This document shows, piece by piece, positions 21,783-55,409 of a stretch of DNA of 61,384 nucleotides. Both the position numbers and the translations under genes were made by a program. The stretch lies in the NCBI GenBank assembly GCA_900316205.1, contig ONBX01000016.1:1-61384 (forward strand), read 5' to 3'. Source of the stretch: an uncultured Eubacteriales bacterium (GTDB taxonomy: Bacteria > Bacillota > Clostridia > Oscillospirales > Oscillospiraceae). Position 1 is the first letter of the stretch. Each line of letters starts with the position of its first letter. Under the pieces are notes generated by a model. That model did no database searches. It was not told where the DNA came from and was given only the letters and a program-made list of their open reading frames with translations.

Positions 21783-22893
21783 ATCTTGTCCCCTTTCCTG
21801 TGCCTCAGCACAAAAGGATATGGCCGGGCTCCTGATGGACCCCGGCCACATAGTTTTTGCGCTGAAGGTTTCCCTTCAGCAGGGAGTTTCCAACCCTATT
21901 TGCCCCATGCTCCCCAGGTTGGCGGGTACATCTCAGCCCACACGTGGATCGTGTGTCACAGGTCATTGCCTCCCCGCGGGCCTCGCCGGGTCGCCCCCAT
22001 TGCGTGATCCGGCAGAGCCGGGCTGTGGCTGGGCGAGAGTATCATTGTTGCATTCAGACTTCTCCGCGATCGGCCCGCTCCACACGGGCCGTTCCCTGCG
22101 CTGTTGATCGCTCGCTCCGAAGAGGTCATGGCGCCAGCCGGCGTCGCTCCATCTGAATGGAAAGTAACTGAGATGCGCTATTCACTTGTCAAAGGGCACG
22201 AGGCAGGATTTACGTTCCCCTCACTACTCTATTGGGCAATTTTTTTCGATTTGTATGAGGTCCGAGGAAAGTTTTTTCATATTATTATCGTTCCCACAAA
22301 ATCGCAAAAATAATGCCCGGACGGGTATAGCAGACCAGGCCTAAGCCCCGTTTGCACCCGTTCGGGTAAAGAAACTGATTGTCGGTTGCACGATCCGGAA
22401 ACACCCGGAAACAAACAGAGAAACGCCGACCGGGATTGATTCCTGATCGGCGTTCTTGTGTCCATGAAAGGATACGCCCCTCCGATTGACCGGATCGGAG
22501 GGGCATTCTTGAGAGAGGTGTGCGGCAGCCTTGCACCGGGATTGAGGGGGTCCCGTCTGCCGCACTTGCATCTGATCTGCCCAAAGCATAGCAAAAAACG
22601 GTCCTCGCCGAAAGCCCCCTGGGGGGATCGCCTTTTTGACATTCTCATATCCCCCACTGGGGTTTCTTTAACAGCTCGCACAAAGATTTCCTTCGATTTT
22701 CAAGCATATTTCCCGTTTTTCCATCTCCTTCGCGCCTTTTTGCCCTGCTTTTCTCCATCATTTCAGCAATCTGCTCAAAATGACCCGGGTGGGGGGATAT
22801 GTCCGGAACGGAATTCATATCCCCCCACCCGGGTTGCGGCGGTTCCGGGGCAAGAATAGAATACTGGTATTCTGGAAAGCGGGAACTCGGAAC
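21783..22893. other. 1.1-kb hairpin-rich non-coding region
   Basis: I find no convincing gene. Perfect hairpins stand at 22422-22454 (AACGCCGA/TCGGCGTT), 22476-22504 (11-bp stem GCCCCTCCGAT), 22520-22565 (9-bp stem GTGCGGCAG) and 22783-22834 (19-bp stem). The last lies in front of the CsoR-like gene. The 21.8-22.3 kb part shows nothing I can name. Confidence 0.6.
22783..22834. promoter_or_regulatory. 19-bp inverted repeat with G6/C6 tracts, likely CsoR-family operator
   Basis: The two arms (22783-22801 and 22816-22834) pair perfectly around a 14-base loop. Each contains a G6/C6 run bordered by ATAT, the type of sequence bound by CsoR/RcnR/FrmR tetramers. A related ATATCCCCC tract is at 22647-22655 and a GGGGGGAT at 22621. 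Confidence 0.5.
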
Positions 22894-37019: not shown

Positions 37020-37338
37020 TCCTTTCAGAGCGTATCTTGCAGATCTCCCCGGGTAAGAGCGACAACCTTCCTCTCATGACCACCACATCTACTGTATGGG
37101 GTTCGGGTAGCATTGGACTTTCCCTTGTTGCGCAGGGTCGTCCGCCCCAAGCCAGCCTTGTATGTGGTTTCTGTCCGTTGGTCTGAGAGTTTGCCCTGCG
37201 GCGGACCTTTCAACCTCCGCAATCCGGCTTCCTTCTGATTCCCTCTCGCGATGGACACCCTTGCCTTTGGCTAACGGTTCCTGCTGCCGAGTCCGTAGTG
37301 GACTTTCACCACCAAGTTGTCGCCCATGCCGGGCGCAC
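37020..37338 (-). mobile_element. Truncated group II intron (5' ribozyme part, no reverse transcriptase)
   Basis: Read on the minus strand, the sequence begins GTGCGCCCGGCATGGGCGAC at 37338, the usual 5' start of bacterial group II introns. It continues with GGTGAAAGTCCACTACGG, TTAGCCAAAGGCAAGGGTG and GACAGAAACCACATACAAGGC, conserved domain I segments. It ends near 37020 with no reverse-transcriptase frame and no domain V/VI that I can see, so it is a dead 5' fragment. Its left border lies a few bases after a terminator, the target choice of group IIC introns. Confidence 0.75.
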
Positions 37339-42213: not shown

Positions 42214-42591
42214 ATGGCACGACCGAAAAAACTTGATACCCCGACCAAAGAACACTTCGTTGGCTTCTGGATCTCGGAGGAACTCTATCAGATCGTATTG
42301 ACCGAAGCGAAGAAGGCAGGTCTCTCTCAGTCCGCTTACTGGCGCAGCCTCGCCGCGAATCAGGAAATCCGGCAGCAGCCGGTCCTGATCCATAACGTTG
42401 ACGCCATCATCACCGAGCTTCGGCAGATCAACAAGCTGGGCAGCAACCTGAATCAGATCGCCCGATACTTCAACGAGAACGGTCTTATGACTAATTCTCT
42501 CGCGAAGGAGCTGCAGGAGACGCTCCATACGCTGCAGGATTCCTGCGGCCGTCTGGACCGGGCAGTGGAAAAAGAATATGGCAACAGTTAA
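42214..42591 (+). CDS. MobC-like relaxosome protein
   Basis: A 125-residue accessory protein that binds oriT and helps the relaxase. A ribbon-helix-helix-like N-terminus (FVGFWISEELYQIVLTEAKK) is followed by the MobC signature QINKLGSNLNQIARYFNENG. ATG 42214 has AAAGGAG upstream. It overlaps the relaxase gene by 14 bases. Confidence 0.88.
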   Translation: MARPKKLDTPTKEHFVGFWISEELYQIVLTEAKKAGLSQSAYWRSLAANQEIRQQPVLIHNVDAIITELRQINKLGSNLNQIARYFNENGLMTNSLAKELQETLHTLQDSCGRLDRAVEKEYGNS

Positions 42592-44152
42592 ACACATCAA
42601 GGTCAAAAACAACTGGTATTCCGATGCCGTGCGCTATCTGAAATACCGGCATGACGAGTATACGAACAAGCCCATCCTGGACGAAAACGGCGAGCTGATT
42701 CTGCGGGACTTTTTCCTCATGGACGGCGTCCTCTGCAGCCCGGAATCCTTCGGCATGGAGTGCATGCAGACAAACGCCGCTTTCGGAAAGAACACCTCCC
42801 CTGACGAGATCAAGGCGCACCACTATATTGTGAGCTTTGATCCCCGGGACCGGGAGGAAAACAACCTCAGCTGCGAGAAGGCGCAGGCCCTGGGGCTGGA
42901 GCTGACGCAGCGCGCTCTTCCAGGGCACCAGGCCATCGTCTGCACCCACCCGGACGGTCACAACGGTGCGGGAAATATCCACGTACACATCGTGATCAAC
43001 AGCGTCAGAAAAGAGGCGGCGCTTGATCCTCTCTCCGCGGAAAAGCAGAACCTTCTTCCGGCGGGTTACAAGCACAATGCCTCCGACAAATTCATGGTCT
43101 TTTTCAAGCAGCAGGTCATGGATCTCTGCCAGCGGGAGGGCCTCTATCAGGTGGATCTGCTGAACCCCGCCAAGGTCTGCATCACAGACAAAGAGTACTG
43201 GGCGCAGCGCCGCGGGAAGCACGATTTGGACGAAACTGCAGCCGCCCAGGTGCAGCCCGACGAATCCACATTTGAGACGTTTCTTGGCACTCTGCGCAGG
43301 CAGATCTCATCCACCTTGGATGACAGCAAAAGCCAGGAGGAATTCCGGGAAAAGCTCTTGGAAAACTACGGCATCACGCTTCTGGAAAGCCGCGGGCGTT
43401 TCAGCTATCTGCTTCCGGACCGGGAGCGTCCCATCCGCGCCAGACGGCTGGGAACGGACTTCGATAAAGGCTTTCTCCTTAGCTATTTCCGCAGCCTGGA
43501 CCGCGAAGCCAGGAGCGCCGAAAGTGCCGCTTCGAAGCCCGCTGACCGTGCCAAAAAGGCCGATCCTTCCATCCGGCTGATCGTAGATCTGCAGACGCTG
43601 GTGAAGGCCTGCGAGAATCCCAATTACGCCCGAAAGGTCAAGATCAGCAACCTGAAGGAGATGTCCAAAACCCTTGCCTTCCTCCAGGAAAACAAGCTTG
43701 GCACCGAGGAGGATCTGCTGGCACTTCTCACCGACACCAGGGCCGATCTCCACGAAAAGCACGCCGCGCTGAAAGCCACCGAAAAGATGCTGGACGATAC
43801 CAATCTTCTGATCCGAAATGTGGGCCAGTACCTCGCCAACAAGAGCACCTATTCTGCCTATCTGAAGGCCGGGAACAAGCAGGATTTTCGGGAGGCTCAC
43901 AGCAGCAGTCTGGCTCTGTACGAGGCCGCAAGGAAGCAGCTCCGCGAGCTCACCGGAGAGAAAACTGTCCCCTCGCTGAAGGAGCTGAAGGCGCAGAAGG
44001 CTGCTCTTCTTCAGCAGAAAAACGAGCAGTATGCGGCCTACTCCTTCGCCCGCTCAAAGCTGCGGGAGCTGCAAACCGTGGCCGCCAATGTGGAGACTAT
44101 GCTCGGCGTCAAGCTCTCGCCCGAGCACTCCCCTGCCGATCGAACAAAATAA
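42578..44152 (+). CDS. MOBP-type relaxase
   Basis: Nicks oriT and pilots the strand during transfer. The catalytic domain (residues 1-200) contains HHYIVSFDPRD and the three-His metal site in HPDGHNGAGNIHVHIVINS. The rest is a long helical, partly coiled tail (about 320-510). At 524 residues it is a normal length for relaxases of clostridial mobilizable elements. No coupling protein or secretion genes follow, so it must use a helper element. Confidence 0.9.
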   Translation: MATVKHIKVKNNWYSDAVRYLKYRHDEYTNKPILDENGELILRDFFLMDGVLCSPESFGMECMQTNAAFGKNTSPDEIKAHHYIVSFDPRDREENNLSCEKAQALGLELTQRALPGHQAIVCTHPDGHNGAGNIHVHIVINSVRKEAALDPLSAEKQNLLPAGYKHNASDKFMVFFKQQVMDLCQREGLYQVDLLNPAKVCITDKEYWAQRRGKHDLDETAAAQVQPDESTFETFLGTLRRQISSTLDDSKSQEEFREKLLENYGITLLESRGRFSYLLPDRERPIRARRLGTDFDKGFLLSYFRSLDREARSAESAASKPADRAKKADPSIRLIVDLQTLVKACENPNYARKVKISNLKEMSKTLAFLQENKLGTEEDLLALLTDTRADLHEKHAALKATEKMLDDTNLLIRNVGQYLANKSTYSAYLKAGNKQDFREAHSSSLALYEAARKQLRELTGEKTVPSLKELKAQKAALLQQKNEQYAAYSFARSKLRELQTVAANVETMLGVKLSPEHSPADRTK

Positions 44153-45303: not shown

Positions 45304-45374
45304 ACGGCACATATACCGATCTGTTTCCAAGTCAAAAGTGTGTGAATCCTGTGCGAGGAGTTGAAAAAGCAGTC

Positions 45375-46923: not shown

Positions 46924-47376
46924 ATGAAAACTGCTTATATCATGATTGGGATCCAGGGCAGCGGAAAGAGCGAATTCTGCCGCCGCTATCTCCCGGGGAT
47001 CGAACGGGTCAACCTGGATACCCTCAAAACGAGAAACAACGAGGCAAGAAGGATTGCCGACTGCCACGCCCGCGGCGTTGACTATGTAGTAGACAACACC
47101 AATCCCACCCGGGAGGACCGGGCCAGGTATATTCCCGCAGCAAAGGCGCAAGGCTACCGGGTCATCGGTTATTTCATGCAGTCCCGTCTGCAGGACTGCA
47201 TTGCAAGGAACAACAGGCGCGAAGGAAAAGAAGTCGTCCCGCCCAAGGCCATTGCCATGACCTCGAACAGGCTGGAAATGCCAAGCATGGCCGAGGGCTT
47301 TGACGCGCTGTTCTTTGTGGCAAACGACGGGAAGAATATGGCAATCAGCGAATGGAGGGAGAACGATGAACTTTGA
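46924..47376 (+). CDS. T4-PNK-like P-loop kinase
   Basis: A 150-residue kinase with Walker A GIQGSGKS, the Asp of VNLDTLKTRNNE, and YVVDNTNPTREDR, which together mark the 5'-hydroxyl polynucleotide kinase family. It would phosphorylate 5'-OH ends of broken RNA. There is no phosphatase domain. It overlaps the Thg1-like gene by 11 bases, and a 5' phosphate or activated 5' end is what a Thg1-like enzyme works on. Confidence 0.8.
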   Translation: MKTAYIMIGIQGSGKSEFCRRYLPGIERVNLDTLKTRNNEARRIADCHARGVDYVVDNTNPTREDRARYIPAAKAQGYRVIGYFMQSRLQDCIARNNRREGKEVVPPKAIAMTSNRLEMPSMAEGFDALFFVANDGKNMAISEWRENDEL

Positions 47377-48121
47377 CGATCTTGACGCGAAGATGCGCGT
47401 CTATGAGCAGTCGCTGGATCAGGTGCTGCTGCCTGAGCTCTATCTGGTCGCCCGCCTGGACGGCAACCGCTTTACCAGACTGACCAAGGAGGTCTGCAAC
47501 TTCGAGGTGCCCTTTGACCTTCGCTTCCGGGATATGATGGTGGAGACTGTCAAGGCCCTGATGAACTACGGCTTCCGGGTGATCTACGGCTTCACCCAGA
47601 GCGACGAGATCTCCCTTCTCTTCCACCCGGACGAGGACACCTTCGGCCGCAAGGTTCGGAAGTACAATTCCCTGCTCGCCGGCGTAGCCAGCGCTGCCTT
47701 TTCCATGCAGCTGGGGCAGCAGGCGATCTTCGACTGCCGCATGGTGCCGCTTCCCACGGTCGAACGTGTCCAGGACTATTTCCTCTGGCGCCAGGAGGAT
47801 GCGCACCGCAATTCTCTCAACGCCCACTGCTACTGGATGCTCCGCAAGCAGGGCAAAAGCGTGGCGGAGGCCACAAAGCTGCTGGAGGGGCAGTCGGTCG
47901 CCTTCAAGAATGAGCTGCTCTTCCAGAACGGAATCAACTTCGATAAGCTCCCCAGTTGGCAGAAGCGGGGCATCGGCGTATACTGGGATACGGTTGAGAA
48001 GCAGGGCTTCAACCCCATCACCGGCAGGGCGGAAACAGCCATTCGCCGGGCTTTGAAGGTCGATCAGGAGCTGCCGCTGCGGGAGGAATACGCGAAGTTT
48101 TTAACTTCTTTTCTCCTTTGA
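47366..48121 (+). CDS. Thg1-like 3'-5' RNA polymerase
   Basis: The tRNA-His guanylyltransferase family adds nucleotides to 5' ends of tRNA; bacterial Thg1-like proteins repair 5'-truncated tRNAs. Metal-binding motifs are VARLDGNRFTRLTKE and YGFTQSDEISLLF, and the family C-terminal NPITGRAETAIRR can be seen. At 251 residues it is full length. GGAGGG precedes ATG 47366. The window carries tRNA-like RNAs and tRNA genes but no tRNA-His, which favours repair or editing over G-1 addition. Confidence 0.92.
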   Translation: MNFDDLDAKMRVYEQSLDQVLLPELYLVARLDGNRFTRLTKEVCNFEVPFDLRFRDMMVETVKALMNYGFRVIYGFTQSDEISLLFHPDEDTFGRKVRKYNSLLAGVASAAFSMQLGQQAIFDCRMVPLPTVERVQDYFLWRQEDAHRNSLNAHCYWMLRKQGKSVAEATKLLEGQSVAFKNELLFQNGINFDKLPSWQKRGIGVYWDTVEKQGFNPITGRAETAIRRALKVDQELPLREEYAKFLTSFLL

Positions 48122-48160: not shown

Positions 48161-49396
48161 ATGGCCTACAGCGAGCTGATCAAGAGCTTCGAGAAGATCC
48201 GCGACTACATGCGGGACTTCTACGTCTACGGCTTCAAGAGCCGGGAGGATTTCAACAAAAAGAGCGCCCGCAGCTATGACGACGAGCGGCGGCGCATCGA
48301 AAGCTGGCTGGGGGGCTACATGGCCTTCCGCCGCAGCGCCGAGGGCAAGAACGTCTTCATCTCCGTGGACAACCGCAGCGTCCCCTTCAATCCCCTGCAC
48401 AACGCCTGGAAAGCCAAAAGCTTCACCGACAAGGACATCGTCCTGCACTTCTGCATCCTGGATCTGCTGGCGGACGGCGCGGCCCGCAGCGCGGGCGAGA
48501 TTACCGAGGGCGTGGCGGCGCTTCTTTCCCACACGGACACGCCCTTCGAGCTCGACGAGTCCACCGTACGCAAAAAGCTGAAGGAATACGCGGAGATGGG
48601 GCTCCTGCAGAGTGAAAAGCAGGGCCGGCTCCTTGTCTTCCGCCTGGCCGAGGACCGGGTGGAGCTCTCCTCCTGGGCGGATGCGATCTCCTTCTTCTCG
48701 GAGGAGGCGCCCCTTGGCATCATCGGCTCCTATCTGCTGGACCGGCAGGCGGAGGCCCCGGAGCGCTTTCGCTACAAGCACCACTATCTGCTCCACACCC
48801 TGGACAGCCAGATCCTTTTTGACGCCCTCTGCGCCATGAAGGAGAAGCGCTGCATCGATCTTGTGACCTTCAGCCTCCGCAAGGACGCCGAGCGGGAGCA
48901 CCGGGTCTATCCCCTGCGCTTTTACATCAGCACCCAGACCGGCCGGGAATACCTGCTGGCCTATCACTACAAGTTCCGCAAGCCCATGTTCTTCCGGCTG
49001 GACACCATCCGCTCCGTCAGCCCCGGGTCGGTGGAGCCCCGGCACGAGAAATACGCGGGCTATGCCGCCAAATTCGACGAGAATCTCTGGGGCGTCTCCA
49101 CCGGTGGGGACTACAGTCTGGACCATGTGGAGATCACCCTGCACGTGGGATATGGCGAGGACTTTATTCTGGACCGGCTGGAGCGGGAGAAGCGTCACGG
49201 CCGCATTGAGGCCATCGACTCCCACACCTATAAATTTGTGGCCGACGTGTACGACGCCGGGGAGATGCTGACCTGGGCCCGCAGCTTCATTGGCCGTGTG
49301 GTCCGCTTTGAGAGCAACAACAGCTTTGCCGTCCGGCGCTTTTATGACGATATCCGGCGCATGGAGGCGCTCTACGAAGGAGGTGAGGCCACATGA
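48161..49396 (+). CDS. WYL-domain regulator 1
   Basis: A 411-residue protein. The N-terminal 190 residues contain winged-helix regions (ITEGVAALLSHTDTPF, ESTVRKKLKEYAEMGLL). The middle is a WYL domain with YPLRFYISTQTGREYLLAYH and FFRLDTIRSV. WYL regulators sense nucleic-acid ligands and control CRISPR, BREX, CBASS and damage genes. AAAGGAGGTGAGGAC precedes the ATG. A four-base overlap joins it to the second WYL gene. Confidence 0.85.
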   Translation: MAYSELIKSFEKIRDYMRDFYVYGFKSREDFNKKSARSYDDERRRIESWLGGYMAFRRSAEGKNVFISVDNRSVPFNPLHNAWKAKSFTDKDIVLHFCILDLLADGAARSAGEITEGVAALLSHTDTPFELDESTVRKKLKEYAEMGLLQSEKQGRLLVFRLAEDRVELSSWADAISFFSEEAPLGIIGSYLLDRQAEAPERFRYKHHYLLHTLDSQILFDALCAMKEKRCIDLVTFSLRKDAEREHRVYPLRFYISTQTGREYLLAYHYKFRKPMFFRLDTIRSVSPGSVEPRHEKYAGYAAKFDENLWGVSTGGDYSLDHVEITLHVGYGEDFILDRLEREKRHGRIEAIDSHTYKFVADVYDAGEMLTWARSFIGRVVRFESNNSFAVRRFYDDIRRMEALYEGGEAT

Positions 49397-50373
49397 TTTT
49401 CTCGGAAGTCTACGGCTCCTACTTCAAGGCCGTCTCCGCCATCCTGGCCAAGGCCGTGGCCGGGAACCTCACCCAGCAGGAGCTGACGCGCACGGTGCTG
49501 GAGACCGCCTTTGGCGAGAGCCTCATCACCATCCCCGCCAAGCTCACCGACGGCAGCTGGCCCCTGCTGACAAAGGACTTTGCAACGCCCTTGCAGCACA
49601 CGCCCCGCGCCCCGCTGACCACGCTTGAAAAGCAGTGGCTGAAGGCCCTGCTCCAGGATCCCCGGGTGCGCCTCTTCTCCCCCTCGGAGGAGGGGCTGGA
49701 GGATGTGGAGCCCCTCTTCACCCCGGAGCAGTTCGTCTACTTCGACCGCTACACCGACGGGGACGATTTCACCGATCCGAAGTACATCAAGCATTTTCAG
49801 TTGATCCTCCGCGCCATGCGGGAAGGGCGCAGGCTCGAGGTGCACTTCCACGGACACCGGGGATTCCGGAACAGCTACCTCTGCATCCCCTACCGGCTGG
49901 AGTACTCCTCCAAGGACGACAAGTTCCGGCTGCAAACCGCCTTTCGCGGCAAGCCCCTGACCGTCAATCTCTCCCGCATCGATTCGATCTATCTGTGGTC
50001 GCGCTGGCGAGAGAGCGAAAACCGGCCGCCCGCCGAGCGGGAGCAGACCCTGGTGCTGGATCTCTTCGACACCCGCAACGCTCTGGAGCGGGCCATGCTG
50101 CACTTCTCCGACCTGGAGAAGGAGACGGAGCGCCTGGACGAGCGGCACTACCGCATCCGCCTCCGCTACCGCGAGGGAGATGAGACTGAAATCCTGATCC
50201 GCGTTCTCTCCTTCGGTCCGGTGCTGAAGGTGCTGGAGCCCCGGTACATGGTGGAGCAGATCCGTGAGCGCCTGGCAAAGCAGCGTGCGCTGATCAACGA
50301 AGAAGCCGAAAAAGAACTGCCCGCTATCCTCCGATCCATTGAGGAAGCGAGAAACGGGGATGCAGAAGCATGA
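49393..50373 (+). CDS. WYL-domain regulator 2
   Basis: A 326-residue WYL protein; the domain includes LEVHFHGHRGFRNSYLCIPY and VNLSRIDSIYLW. It lacks an obvious N-terminal winged helix of the usual type, so it may form a heterodimer with the first WYL protein, as PafB and PafC do. It is followed by an overlapping start (ATGA). Confidence 0.82.
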   Translation: MIFSEVYGSYFKAVSAILAKAVAGNLTQQELTRTVLETAFGESLITIPAKLTDGSWPLLTKDFATPLQHTPRAPLTTLEKQWLKALLQDPRVRLFSPSEEGLEDVEPLFTPEQFVYFDRYTDGDDFTDPKYIKHFQLILRAMREGRRLEVHFHGHRGFRNSYLCIPYRLEYSSKDDKFRLQTAFRGKPLTVNLSRIDSIYLWSRWRESENRPPAEREQTLVLDLFDTRNALERAMLHFSDLEKETERLDERHYRIRLRYREGDETEILIRVLSFGPVLKVLEPRYMVEQIRERLAKQRALINEEAEKELPAILRSIEEARNGDAEA

Positions 50374-51354: not shown

Positions 51355-51398
51355 TTTTTCGCTCTGACTGGGCGCCACCCTTCACAGCAGAAATAAAA

Positions 51399-51442
51399 GA
51401 TGCGGACTTTTCTCGAAAGAGAAGAGTTCGCATCTTTTTTTC
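51399..51442 (+). terminator. Terminator of the RNA-repair operon
   Basis: A 16-bp stem with GNRA-like GAAA loop (51399-51414 with 51419-51434) is followed by eight T. Its second half and downstream 40 bases recur in diverged form at 52404-52470. Confidence 0.9.
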
Positions 51443-52361: not shown

Positions 52362-52662
52362 CATCACGATTTCCTATTCGGAACCGCGTAAACAGCAAAA
52401 CCCCTCGAAAAAGAAGAGTTCGCAACTTTTTTTCCAAGAAAAAACTTCCTCGCAATGGTAGTTTATTCCTGCAGGGCGGATTTGAACTGCGCTATCGATC
52501 ATCTCGTCGGTAAAGCAGTCGGCTCTCCCTGCTCCCGAAGTCGGGGAGGCTTGCATGGCTCCCGGGCGATTGCAGCCCTGCCGCCCATGCGCGTCCTCCC
52601 ATGCTGAAGAAAGCCGCTCCCACCGTGGTGTTGTAGCCGTAGGTCCGGAGCTGCACAGCGAA
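52362..52662. other. Non-coding leader of the RNA array
   Basis: No gene recognised. It holds a diverged copy of the 51.4-kb terminator region (52404-52470), an orphan ACAGCAA at 52392-52398 and an ACAGCGA at 52655-52661, but no paired AAG/CTT arms. Confidence 0.5.
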
Positions 52663-52720
52663 AAGCACGCACAGCAAAGATATCAATCGTAATCATAACG
52701 ATCTGCTTTTCCGTGCTTTG
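52663..52720 (+). ncRNA. RNA array module A (58 nt)
   Basis: AAGCACG (52663-52669) pairs with CGTGCTT (52712-52718); ACAGCAA starts at 52671. The interior holds CGT-AATCATA-ACG, a small hairpin. It is the shortest module but one and is joined to module B by GAGAA. Confidence 0.7.
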
Positions 52721-52723
52721 AGA

Positions 52724-52776
52724 AAGATACCAACAGCGATCTTCCTTGTCATGTATTCTGACCGGACGGTATCTTG
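52724..52776 (+). ncRNA. RNA array module B (53 nt)
   Basis: AAGATACC (52724-52731) pairs perfectly with GGTATCTT (52768-52775) and G follows. The box is ACAGCGA at 52733. The only AT-rich stem of the set, still fully paired. Confidence 0.75.
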
Positions 52777-52805
52777 TTCATCAGAAGAAAACGCCGCCTT
52801 GGCCC

Positions 52806-52854
52806 GCCGCATCCTCCGATGCGGCTCCGGCGCTCCGATGGCGGAGCGCCTTTT
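52806..52854 (+). terminator. Two GC-rich hairpins between modules B and C
   Basis: GCCGCAT/ATGCGGC (52806-52825) and GGCGCTCC/GGAGCGCC (52829-52850) followed by TTTT. The second is terminator-like and could separate or attenuate array transcripts. Confidence 0.6.
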
Positions 52855-52877
52855 GCCCTGGCAGCGTTTTCGATAGA

Positions 52878-53043
52878 AAGACACAGACAGCAAGCCTTTC
52901 AGATCCATTAGCTCAACTGTAGAGCACCACCTTACGGGGTGGAGGCCGCGGGAGCATCTGCGCTGGGCGAGTTTGGGCCGGGTCAAACCGGAACATCCGC
53001 TCTTGTGGATACAAGCCCGCATGAATCATGAAACTGTGTCTTG
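52878..53043 (+). ncRNA. RNA array module C (166 nt) with tRNA 5'-half-like segment
   Basis: AAGACACAG (52878-52886) pairs over nine bases with CTGTGTCTT (53034-53042). ACAGCAA starts at 52887. The interior begins GATCCATTAGCTCAACTGTA and GAGCACCACC-TTACGG-GGTGG, which reads as acceptor strand, D arm and anticodon-like arm of a tRNA (Val-like, loop shortened to six), without a normal T arm behind it. Confidence 0.75.
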
Positions 53044-53230
53044 TTTTGGGAAACGCTCCTGTGGGCAAGGCAAGAGAACCGAAGGGACCATTCCCCACGC
53101 CTCAGGCCACTCCCCTTGCCAGTTCTTGAGCTTTCCCGTGCGCTTTTCCTGTGTGGGAGTCCGTGCAGGCCCTGTCGAGACCAGGTGATCTCCGCGGACC
53201 AATGGCAGCAAAAGTGCACAGCAACCGAAA

Positions 53231-53328
53231 AAGGCACCAACAGCAAATGTCTTTTCTGAATAGTTGAGGTTCAACAGCCGGCTCATAACCGGTCTCGCGG
53301 GTCCGAGTCCCGCTTCCATGGTGCCTTG
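53231..53328 (+). ncRNA. RNA array module D (98 nt) with tRNA 3'-half-like segment
   Basis: AAGGCACCA (53231-53239) pairs over nine bases with TGGTGCCTT (53319-53327). ACAGCAA starts at 53240. The interior has GCCGG-CTCATAA-CCGGT, an anticodon arm with CAT, and GCGGG-TCCGAGT-CCCGC followed by TTCCA, a T arm and acceptor end. A proper D arm is missing. An unpaired AAGTGC-ACAGCAA stands just upstream (53212-53224). Confidence 0.8.
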
Positions 53329-53355
53329 TCACAAGCCATACAAAAAAGTGAAAAT

Positions 53356-53463
53356 AAGACGCGATCAGCAAATCGCCTCTGAGCCGGAAGCCTGCTGGCA
53401 TGCGACACTCCTTCCGGCCGGATGATGGGCGGATCTTTCCGCTTGGCACCATCACGCGTCTTG
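53356..53463 (+). ncRNA. RNA array module E (108 nt)
   Basis: AAGACGCG (53356-53363) pairs with CGCGTCTT (53455-53462). The box is TCAGCAA at 53365. Inside are GCCGGAAG/CTTCCGGC and TGATGG/CCATCA stems; no tRNA-like order is evident. Confidence 0.75.
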
Positions 53464-53556
53464 GGTACGGGCCGGGTCGATGTCACGAGGCTAGGCGGCG
53501 CATGCCCTGAACCTTAATCGCGGCTCAGGCCCGTGCCGATTTATCATCACAAAGCA

Positions 53557-53668
53557 AAGACACGTACAGCAATCCACTTGAGGTGCCCGTTAGCTCAGTG
53601 CAGAGCGCCTGATTTGTAATTGAGGAGGAGCGGGTTGGACTCCCGCACGGGTTGGGAAAGGTGTCTTG
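53557..53668 (+). ncRNA. RNA array module F (112 nt) with complete tRNA-Thr-like domain
   Basis: AAGACAC (53557-53563) pairs with GTGTCTT (53661-53667); ACAGCAA starts at 53566. The interior is a nearly whole tRNA: acceptor GCCCGT/ACGGGT, D arm GCTC-AGTGCA-GAGC, anticodon arm CCTGA-TTTGTAA-TTGAGG with anticodon TGT, and T arm GCGGG-TTGGACT-CCCGC. The D loop is short, the anticodon stem has mispairing, the T loop deviates from TTC, and no CCA is encoded. Confidence 0.8.
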
Positions 53669-53671
53669 AGA

Positions 53672-53772
53672 AAGGCGCAGACAGCAAGCATCTGTCCACT
53701 GAATAGGCTAAGGTGAAACGCAGGCGAATAGCCCGGAATTCACCTGAACCTTATCAAAGACCACGCGCCTTG
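53672..53772 (+). ncRNA. RNA array module G (101 nt)
   Basis: AAGGCGC (53672-53678) pairs with GCGCCTT (53765-53771); ACAGCAA starts at 53681. Inside is AGGTGAA/TTCACCT. The junction TTGAGAAAG with module F is the same as between A and B. Confidence 0.75.
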
Positions 53773-53784
53773 GGTAGTTTTATA

Positions 53785-53884
53785 AAGGCACAAACAGCAA
53801 TCTATCATGTTTCATACTGCAGAAAGATGGATCGGTCAAAAAACAGCAATTCCCAAAAAGTGAACCTGTCATTGACGTGCCTTG
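53785..53884 (+). ncRNA. RNA array module H (100 nt)
   Basis: AAGGCAC (53785-53791) pairs with GTGCCTT (53877-53883); ACAGCAA starts at 53794 and a second copy is at 53843. It ends 34 bases before the start codon of the TROVE-like gene, so array and gene are probably one transcript. Confidence 0.75.
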
Positions 53885-53918: not shown

Positions 53919-55409
53919 GTGTTGGAAGTCCTGAAGAAAACCGCAAACGAAACCTATACCGAAAACGGCGCCCTGACCCATCGCAGCACCGGGAAGGACT
54001 GCCTGGATCTCTTCGCCGCCATCGGCGCCCTGCGCAGGGAGAGCGACCTGGAAATCGAAAGGCGCTTCATGAAGGCCTATACGGAGGACCGGGACCTGGC
54101 CATGAAGATCCTGTTCTTCGCCCGGGACGTCCGGGGCGGCCTGGGCGAGCGGCGCGTCTTTCGCGTCATCCTCCGCTGGCTCGCCTTCAATGAGACCGGC
54201 TCCGTGCTGAGAAATCTCCCCTACATCGCGGAGTACGGCCGCTGGGACGATGTGCTGGTGCTGCTGAACACCCCCTGCCGCAAGGCAGCCCTGGCCCTGC
54301 TGAAGCAGCAGTTTGAGGCGGACCTGGCCGCGCTGGAGCAGAGCGGAGACATTTCCCTGCTGGGCAAGTGGCTCCCCTCGGTGAACGCCTCCAACCCGGA
54401 GACGGTGGCGCTGGCGAAGCAGCTCGCCAGGGCCTTCGGCCTCACGGACCGGGACTACCGCAAGGCGCTGGTGCGTCTGCGCGCCCGAATCCGGATCCTG
54501 GAGAACAACCTGCGGGAGAAGGATTACACCTTCGACTACGCCAAGCAGCCCTCCAAGGCCATGTTCAAGTACCGCAAGGCCTTCCTGCGCAACGATGGGG
54601 AGCGCTACGGCGCTTTCATGGCGAAGGTGCAGCGGGGCGAGGCGAAGCTGCACACCGGCACCCTCCTGCCCTATGAGATCGTGGAGTCCTGCCTGTATTC
54701 CGGTGGTTGGTGGCGCGAGCATTCCTTCATGCGTCCCCTGAGCGAGGAGGAGAAGCTCTCCCTCAACGCCACCTGGGCGGCGCTGGAGGACTTCGCCACC
54801 GGCGAGAACGCCCTGGCCGTGGTGGACACCTCCGGCTCCATGTACTGCCAGAACTCTCCCCTCCCCGCCGCCGTGGCGCTTTCCCTGGGCCTGTATTTTG
54901 CCGAGCGGGCCAAGGGTCCCTACCGCAACCATTTCATCGAGTTCTCCGCCCACCCGGAGCTGATCGAGATCAAGGGCGAGACCTTTGCCGATCGGCTGCG
55001 GTACATCGCCTCCTTCAACGAGGTTGCCAACACCAACCTGGAGGCGGTATTCGACCTGATCCTCCAGGCGGCTGTGGAGAACCGTGTGCCCCAGAGCGGG
55101 CTGCCCGCCAAGCTCTACATCATCTCCGACATGGAGTTTGACGCCTGCGTCAGAGACGCGAAGCTCACGAACTTCGAGAACGCGAAGCAGAACTATGCCC
55201 GCCGCGGCTACAAGCTGCCCCAGATCGTGTTCTGGAACGTGGCCAGCCGCCATGCTCAGCAGCCCGTCACGGTCAACGACCGGGGCGTGGCGCTGGTCTC
55301 CGGCTGCAGCCCCCGCATCTTCTCCATGGCGATGGAGGGCGAGCTGAACCCCTATGCCTACATGCTGAGCGTGGTCAACACGGAGCGCTACGCCCCCATC
55401 GCGGCGTAA
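53919..55409 (+). CDS. TROVE/Ro60-like von Willebrand protein (DUF2828-like)
   Basis: A 496-residue protein with a helical, HEAT-like N-terminal two thirds (RDLAMKILFFARDVRGGLGE; NLPYIAEYGRWDDVLVLL) and a C-terminal von Willebrand A domain with the MIDAS motif VVDTSGSM. This build matches Ro60/TROVE and DUF2828 proteins, ring-shaped binders of Y RNAs and misfolded RNA. GTG 53919 follows AAAGGAGG at eight bases. It stands directly behind the RNA array, which makes those RNAs its likely ligands. Confidence 0.82.
   Translation: MLEVLKKTANETYTENGALTHRSTGKDCLDLFAAIGALRRESDLEIERRFMKAYTEDRDLAMKILFFARDVRGGLGERRVFRVILRWLAFNETGSVLRNLPYIAEYGRWDDVLVLLNTPCRKAALALLKQQFEADLAALEQSGDISLLGKWLPSVNASNPETVALAKQLARAFGLTDRDYRKALVRLRARIRILENNLREKDYTFDYAKQPSKAMFKYRKAFLRNDGERYGAFMAKVQRGEAKLHTGTLLPYEIVESCLYSGGWWREHSFMRPLSEEEKLSLNATWAALEDFATGENALAVVDTSGSMYCQNSPLPAAVALSLGLYFAERAKGPYRNHFIEFSAHPELIEIKGETFADRLRYIASFNEVANTNLEAVFDLILQAAVENRVPQSGLPAKLYIISDMEFDACVRDAKLTNFENAKQNYARRGYKLPQIVFWNVASRHAQQPVTVNDRGVALVSGCSPRIFSMAMEGELNPYAYMLSVVNTERYAPIAA

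Follow-up and report, generated by a model that had tools for sequence, protein, structure and literature searches.

Tandem stem-closed modules before a DUF2828 gene in an Oscillospiraceae-related bacterium: putative Y-RNA-like partners of a predicted Ro60-fold protein

Just upstream of a gene for a DUF2828 protein, the contig ONBX01000016.1 carries a run of short segments with paired ends, which raises the question of what these segments encode and whether they belong with the protein. The contig (61,384 nt, analyzed over its whole length and called the window below) comes from an organism related to the Oscillospiraceae. An earlier note, made from the letters of this DNA alone, had described eight RNA modules here. 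A script search recovered all eight in tandem on the plus strand at 52662-53884, and the identical search of 1,000 dinucleotide shuffles of the region gave a mean of 0.003 modules and a maximum of one. We regard the eight modules with good confidence as tandem Y-RNA-like noncoding RNAs and putative partners of the DUF2828 protein, for which a Ro60 fold is predicted.

All modules share the frame AARRYRC-NN-ACAGCAA ... GYRYYTTG. The 5' arm, AA(G/A)(G/A)(C/T)(A/G)C, is followed by two bases that pair only partly, the box, and a variable interior, and the 3' arm terminates in CTTG or TTTG; with the closing G included, the modules are 53-166 nt long. The box had been described as ACAGCAA or a one-base variant of it, and was found to be exact in six modules and one base off in B (ACAGCGA) and E (TCAGCAA). 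The junction TTGAGAAAG was likewise recovered between A and B and between F and G. The span originally given, 52663-53884, was correct at its end, where the closing G of module H lies, but not at its start, as the arm of module A (AAAGCACG) begins at 52662. The box of module A therefore begins nine bases after the arm start, as elsewhere, and not eight as claimed, which makes the geometry uniform over all eight modules. At pair 3, module A has A-U where the other modules have G-C.

The arms were said to pair perfectly, and this held for pairs 1-7, which form in all eight modules, but not for pair 8, which forms in five of the eight. Overall, 95.3% of the cells pair. Changes on both sides were observed in five of the eight pairs, a number reached by three of 500 shuffles, while the covariation score (0.446, compared with 0.210 when shuffled) was matched by none of the 500. 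Further pair types showed no excess (6 against 6.7). The original suggestion that compensatory changes in the arms reflect a selected RNA structure is supported.

The occurrence of the modules in bacterial relatives was examined in two collections. DUF2828 was found in 23 of 400 genomes of the same family, 22 of them above the cut-off, and flanks were taken from 22; one positive genome, G212, has a weak match of 19.4 bits where tblastn finds no gene. The second collection comprised the best 80 of 554 confirmed contigs from named genomes, and a further 76 contigs were viral. The window and some genomes enter the resulting 102 bacterial loci twice, via the two collections. At least one module was found before the DUF2828 gene in all 97 bacterial loci having at least 700 nt of upstream sequence, against a background of 3% of shuffled loci and five of the 97 reverse strands. 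Among the five loci with less than 700 nt, three had modules and two had none. Once duplicates and N-containing modules were removed, 287 modules in 92 arrays were left.

A genome-wide pattern composed of the arm classes, the box, and a gap of 20-80 nt matched 18 of the 23 DUF2828-positive and two of the 377 DUF2828-negative family genomes (Fisher 8.6e-25), and the reversed pattern matched two of the 400. In four of the five positives missed by the pattern (G050, G071, G277, and G372), modules were found by a looser script; the fifth is G212. Inspection by eye of the DUF2828-negative genomes found no closing stem in either match of G245 and a stem with one mismatch in G082. One positive genome, G029, has an extra match on contig C17 that is off-locus and unpaired, and in G333 the module and the gene are on different contigs, the gene beginning at a contig end.

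Pattern and permutation tests were used in place of a covariance model because the interiors are too variable. One regular expression located each 5' element, and a second one, blind to the sequence of that arm, located the 3' element that follows. A partner was found for 272 of 275 5' elements in the relatives, giving 167 unique pairs, which include all window modules except B, whose box fails the expression. Pairs 3-7 were all Watson-Crick in 93.4% of the 167, compared with a permutation mean of 13.7% and a maximum of 23.4%. Pair 8, which is not fixed by the expressions, was Watson-Crick in 65% as opposed to 25%, and pair 9 stayed within the permutation maximum of the same test.

Neighboring modules are spaced by 0-12 nt in 89 of 195 cases (nine overlaps are finder artefacts), which suggests that they are processed from a single transcript. 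An A at position 3 was found in 25 of 77 5'-most modules and in 28 of 195 others (p 0.001). Identical arms within an array (48 of 439 pairs) were slightly below the shuffled values (mean 63, minimum 46), a weak result that was not used. Between the final arm base and the gene start given by tblastn, the 40 smallest of the 92 array distances are 21-36 nt, with 36 nt in the window. Such distances, together with the position of the bacterial modules on the coding strand before the gene, would also suit a leader that acts in cis on the DUF2828 mRNA, with hairpins that bind DUF2828 or a sensor and regulate expression or stabilize the message. A leader of this kind is quite unlikely, given that up to eight modules with tRNA-like interiors are more than it requires and that modules lie downstream of the gene in the phages SEP9, Felix O1, and LeBron.

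Several other features were observed in and around the array. The spacers at 52777-52877, 53044-53230, and 53464-53556 fold stably (-55.9, -74.0, and -41.5 kcal/mol, values that have no shuffle control) and lack the proper frame; they are possibly decayed or extra RNAs. Two boxes, GCAGCAA and ACAGCAA, occur at 53205-53224, where a module was not found. Further upstream, two hairpins with T runs (51384-51440 and 52392-52436) are similar to each other, both contain AGAAGAGTTCGCA, and each is preceded by ACAGCA; they are possible terminators of common origin. A consensus scan returned four promoter-like sites (shuffles 1.0, sd 0.9) and two terminator-like sites (shuffles 2.3), from which no conclusion was drawn. 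The array is not indicated to be a protein gene, as the four minus-strand open reading frames across it have no Pfam match at E <= 1.

The DUF2828 gene starts 34 nt downstream of the array. The earlier note had suspected a TROVE-like neighbor, and the prediction bears this out as a Ro60/Rsr fold, with a helical-repeat ring and a vWA domain in the alignment-based model (pLDDT 89), which was used instead of the single-sequence model (pLDDT 42.7). Residues D303, S305, and S307 are invariant in 63 sequences and give the vWA domain a DxSxS motif, which we take to be a MIDAS. The link of DUF2828 to Ro60 is accordingly one of predicted fold. Among the open-access matches listed, no paper joins the name DUF2828 to Y RNAs, and the name was found in only four papers of the library searched, to judge by title all on plants. 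For a phage homologue, Y RNAs are proposed in PMC12282133, where the name DUF2828 is not used.

Some of the interiors resemble tRNAs, which goes beyond what the earlier note stated for modules D and F. The interior of module F was called tRNA-Thr (TGT) by ARAGORN and reached 40.2 bits with the Rfam tRNA family. Among 31 unique host tRNAs (from 30 of 43 tRNA loci and the window's end), it was nearest to tRNA-Thr(TGT), with a score of 55 compared with a maximum of 34 in 50 shuffles. Module F lacks both the canonical T loop and the D-loop GG that a functional tRNA gene would have for its elbow. Module D, which has a CAU-type loop, reached 30.8 bits (gathering score 29) when its stretch was searched alone; it was not among the tRNA matches of the whole-window Rfam search, and its best host-tRNA score of 39 was not above the shuffle maximum of 40. 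By eye, module C has a tRNA-like beginning with a D arm and an anticodon-like arm, followed by an aberrant T side, and it scored 48 with a host tRNA-Gly (shuffle maximum 40). The host-tRNA scores of modules A, B, E, G, and H were not above those of shuffles. Besides tRNA, an Rfam search of the array at a loose threshold gave four matches, all far below their gathering scores, and no family other than tRNA reached its gathering score within the array.

In the relatives, landmark tests, which had no shuffle control, detected a T arm in 80 of the 287 modules. These comprised 39 modules in the normal order of D then T, nine in the permuted order of T then D, and 32 with a T arm only; 29 of the 39 normal-order modules also had an anticodon-like loop of 7 nt. 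Counted by array, a T arm was detected in 62 of 92 and not in the other 30; in the window, modules D and F have tRNA-like domains. Mimicry of tRNA is thus frequent per array, not general per module. The tRNA-like pieces vary in completeness, as they would in decayed tRNA genes or tRNA-targeting mobile repeats flanked by short inverted repeats by chance. Such an origin is extremely improbable, given the covarying arms and fixed box alongside changing interiors, and given the strong linkage to DUF2828.

The bacterial Y RNAs are already known as RNAs that are closed by a stem, may enclose a tRNA-like interior, and are encoded beside a Ro60 protein (PMC8394870). The earlier claim that no described RNA family has this layout was therefore too strong for the kind, which the bacterial Y RNAs share, and holds for the frame, which has no Rfam family. 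As in YrlA and YrlB with Rsr, the stem is formed by the two ends of the RNA, some modules have a tRNA-like interior, and the neighboring protein has a Ro60 fold, here predicted. What is new relative to known Y RNAs is the frame, with its other stem and box sequence, the arrangement in arrays of up to eight, and a tRNA mimicry that mostly places D before T (39 modules against nine with the T-before-D order of YrlA). In the window, the permuted order was not found, as modules D and F read D-anticodon-T. In YrlA, we take the anticodon side to be replaced by the Ro stem, in part from a reading of TROVE loci by eye. This T-arm-first reading agrees with the published description of YrlA, which has D, T, and acceptor arms (PMC8394870).

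The TROVE domain itself (PF05731) was found in seven of 391 genomes of the class. A consensus-armed module before the gene was not found in these seven loci, and the stem finder gave six matches in four of them, counted over both strands. By eye, the loci instead show tandem RNAs of their own, whose strands resemble GGGCAGTGCAG and TTTTCTCCC and whose tRNA pieces begin with the T arm (least clear in L295), and the DUF2828 modules do not share this stem sequence. Several of the loci (L293-L299) also appear by eye to have a WYL/WCX-like coding end upstream, which would be a parallel operon plan. The permuted form on a DUF2828 handle was seen by eye in the phages LeBron and Felix O1, and occurs in the bacterial arrays L150, L188, L197, and L202, which ties the TROVE-type and DUF2828-type RNAs together. 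The DUF2828-linked RNAs are probably the Y-RNA-like partners of a divergent branch of Ro60, and we infer their binding, processing, and function. At least one RNA per locus is said to carry a tRNA-like domain in the 2014 survey by Chen. Earlier work, this survey included, may already list some phage or other members.

Besides bacteria, the DUF2828 protein is present in 682 phage records, where it is often annotated 'hypothetical'. Enough upstream sequence was available in 72 viral contigs, some of them near-duplicates. In these (114 kb), ACAGCAA occurred before the DUF2828 homologue 107 times on the same strand and once on the opposite strand. A loose stem finder matched 39 of the 72 loci, 12% of shuffles, and three loci on the reverse strand. 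Among nine named phage regions, it gave a match near the gene in all nine and upstream of it in six, and stems were recognizable in FADO, SEP9, Enterococcus H1, Felix O1, LeBron, and LP-125. When the array was compared with phages by DNA similarity, 25 records were returned, and all ten among the matches listed were tRNA genes.

Two phages come close to the window's system. In the mycobacteriophage LeBron, gp53, a 'Ro-like RNA binding protein', shares phrog_850 with the window protein, and just downstream of it three stems with ACAGCAA or GCAGCAA were seen by eye, one of which the script also found; the differences are other arm sequences, few modules, one permuted tRNA, and the phage genome. 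For mycobacteriophage Y RNAs, PMC12282133 cites Chen 2014. The same paper reports that the Listeria phage CKA15 has three noncoding regions with high transcription ahead of CKA15_055, suggests Y RNAs beside this Rsr-like protein, and counts 20 of its peptides in purified particles (PMC12282133); the Ro-like protein is possibly packaged in virions. The related Listeria phage LP-125 has three ACAGCAA stems (by eye; two by script) just before its DUF2828 gene, whereas the one CKA15 region given with coordinates in PMC12282133 (26,236-26,727) seems, by estimate, to be located at a greater distance upstream. LP-125 also contains two long unannotated stretches (L214:5010-5990) with TTGACA/TATA-like promoters ahead and tRNA genes near. 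By estimated distance, the second stretch corresponds to this CKA15 region, and would be a different, longer noncoding RNA.

Table 1. Modules of the array and neighboring genes in the window.
Feature	Coordinates	Strand	Description
AAA_33 P-loop kinase-like protein (candidate enzyme of RNA end repair)	46924..47376	+	loose neighbor
Thg1-like protein (PF04446), candidate RNA repair enzyme	47300..48121	+	loose neighbor
WYL-domain regulator	48161..49396	+	
Second WYL/WCX regulator	49393..50373	+	
Module A, Y-RNA-like	52662..52720	+	AAAGCACG arm, ACAGCAA box, short interior
Module B	52724..52776	+	AAGATACC arm, ACAGCGA box, short interior; 3 nt past A
Module C	52878..53043	+	AAGACACAG arm; tRNA-like interior start, aberrant T side
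Module D	53231..53328	+	AAGGCACCA arm; normal-order tRNA-like interior 53258-53316, CTCATAA anticodon-like loop
Module E	53356..53463	+	AAGACGCG arm, TCAGCAA box; no tRNA landmark found
Module F	53557..53668	+	AAGACAC arm; complete normal-order tRNA-like domain 53584-53654 (called tRNA-Thr TGT)
Module G	53672..53772	+	AAGGCGC arm; no tRNA landmark found; 3 nt past F
Module H	53785..53884	+	AAGGCAC arm; no tRNA landmark found; 34 nt before DUF2828 start codon
DUF2828/DUF7788 protein with predicted Ro60 fold, presumed partner of the RNAs	53919..55409	+	Pfam, predicted model

The genes around the arrays suggest a link to RNA repair (Table 1). Of the 22 family genomes, 14 have RtcB no more than 1 kb from DUF2828 and 18 have a WYL protein no more than 6.5 kb away, counts that contig ends limit in some genomes. 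Thg1 (PF04446) was found in three of the 400 family genomes, in two of which (G000 and G084) it lies only a few kb from a DUF2828 array. In the window, the adjoining kinase-like and Thg1-like genes lie upstream of the WYL regulators. Together, RtcB in relatives, the Thg1 and kinase genes upstream, and the WYL regulators suggest an inducible RNA-repair operon, and the array likely sits in one. The Salmonella operon rsr-yrlBA-rtcBA, which responds when tRNA is damaged (PMC7790460), is a parallel to this arrangement.

In a PADLOC search, DUF2828, Thg1, and the kinase matched nothing, and the WYL proteins matched WYL models, with Csa3 as an additional match for one of them. The ATPase at 45342 matched 75 defence ATPase models, with PtuA as the best. 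Elsewhere in the window, a relaxase gene at 42578-44152 suggests a mobile element nearby, and minus-strand Rfam matches to the group II intron D1-D4-3 and pemK RNA were found (37058-37255 and 21956-22048).

Several observations weigh against a Ro60-Y-RNA system linked to tRNA repair. On the protein side, the window protein matches only DUF2828 and DUF7788 in Pfam and not TROVE, a PDB sequence search with it returns no Ro60, and the Foldseek TM-scores are moderate (0.35-0.58). On the RNA side, 198 of the 287 modules had no tRNA landmark at all in a second count, with ARAGORN calls in 23; of the window's eight, two (D and F) are tRNA-like, C is partly so, and the remaining five are not. Even module F has neither elbow feature of a working tRNA, with TTGGACT as its T loop and no GG in its D loop. 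The loose finder, at its shuffle rate of 12%, left 33 of the 72 viral loci without an upstream module. As for the neighbors, the window genome has no RtcB match, its Thg1 and kinase genes end 4.5-5.3 kb before the array, which makes the repair link there a loose one, and G071 alone of the 22 family genomes has neither RtcB nor WYL nearby.

If the modules do act as Y RNAs, transcription of the array would run toward DUF2828, and cuts in the short linkers would probably release separate RNAs. The AARRYRC-NN-ACAGCAA element with GYRYYTTG would, judging from its linkage to the gene, be the handle for the DUF2828 ring, and the variable interiors would be the effector part, some of them tRNA mimics joined at the acceptor side with the anticodon-like arm facing outward. 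Such mimics would hold tRNA-recognizing enzymes (for modification, end repair, ligation, or exonuclease action) on the Ro ring and act as a gate for the damaged RNAs that get to it. We tentatively propose that DUF2828 forms a second Ro60 branch, in bacteria and phages, with a Y-RNA code of its own: a single, fixed ring-binding frame onto which each locus strings a panel of different tRNA mimics, many with an anticodon arm, would make the Ro ring a hub for tRNA repair and tRNA-nuclease sensing, and not only a degradation tether.

The anticodon-bearing modules could alternatively form a library of tRNA decoys that bait or sense anticodon nucleases of phage, toxin, or host origin, with the Ro ring and repair enzymes salvaging the products or signaling. 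This explanation is rather unlikely. It would account for the 29 of 287 modules with a D arm, a 7-nt anticodon-like loop, and a T arm in order, which carry many different loops (by a loop test with no shuffle control), for the RtcB and WYL neighbors, and for the carriage of the system by phages, in several of them among tRNA genes; competitive inhibition of anticodon nucleases is also named as an option for YrlA (PMC7790460). Most modules, however, are not tRNA-like, ten of the 39 normal-order ones have no 7-nt loop, and the same paper reports that fragments of Salmonella YrlA were not detected while tRNAs were cut (PMC7790460).

If the reading of the modules as Y-RNA-like partners is true, DUF2828 probably acts as a Ro60-fold protein that has RNAs of its own, and the 'hypothetical' gene of the phage records becomes a testable ribonucleoprotein. 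The combination of a fixed handle with changing tRNA-like cargo would then be a natural experiment for asking why tRNAs are imitated by Y RNAs.
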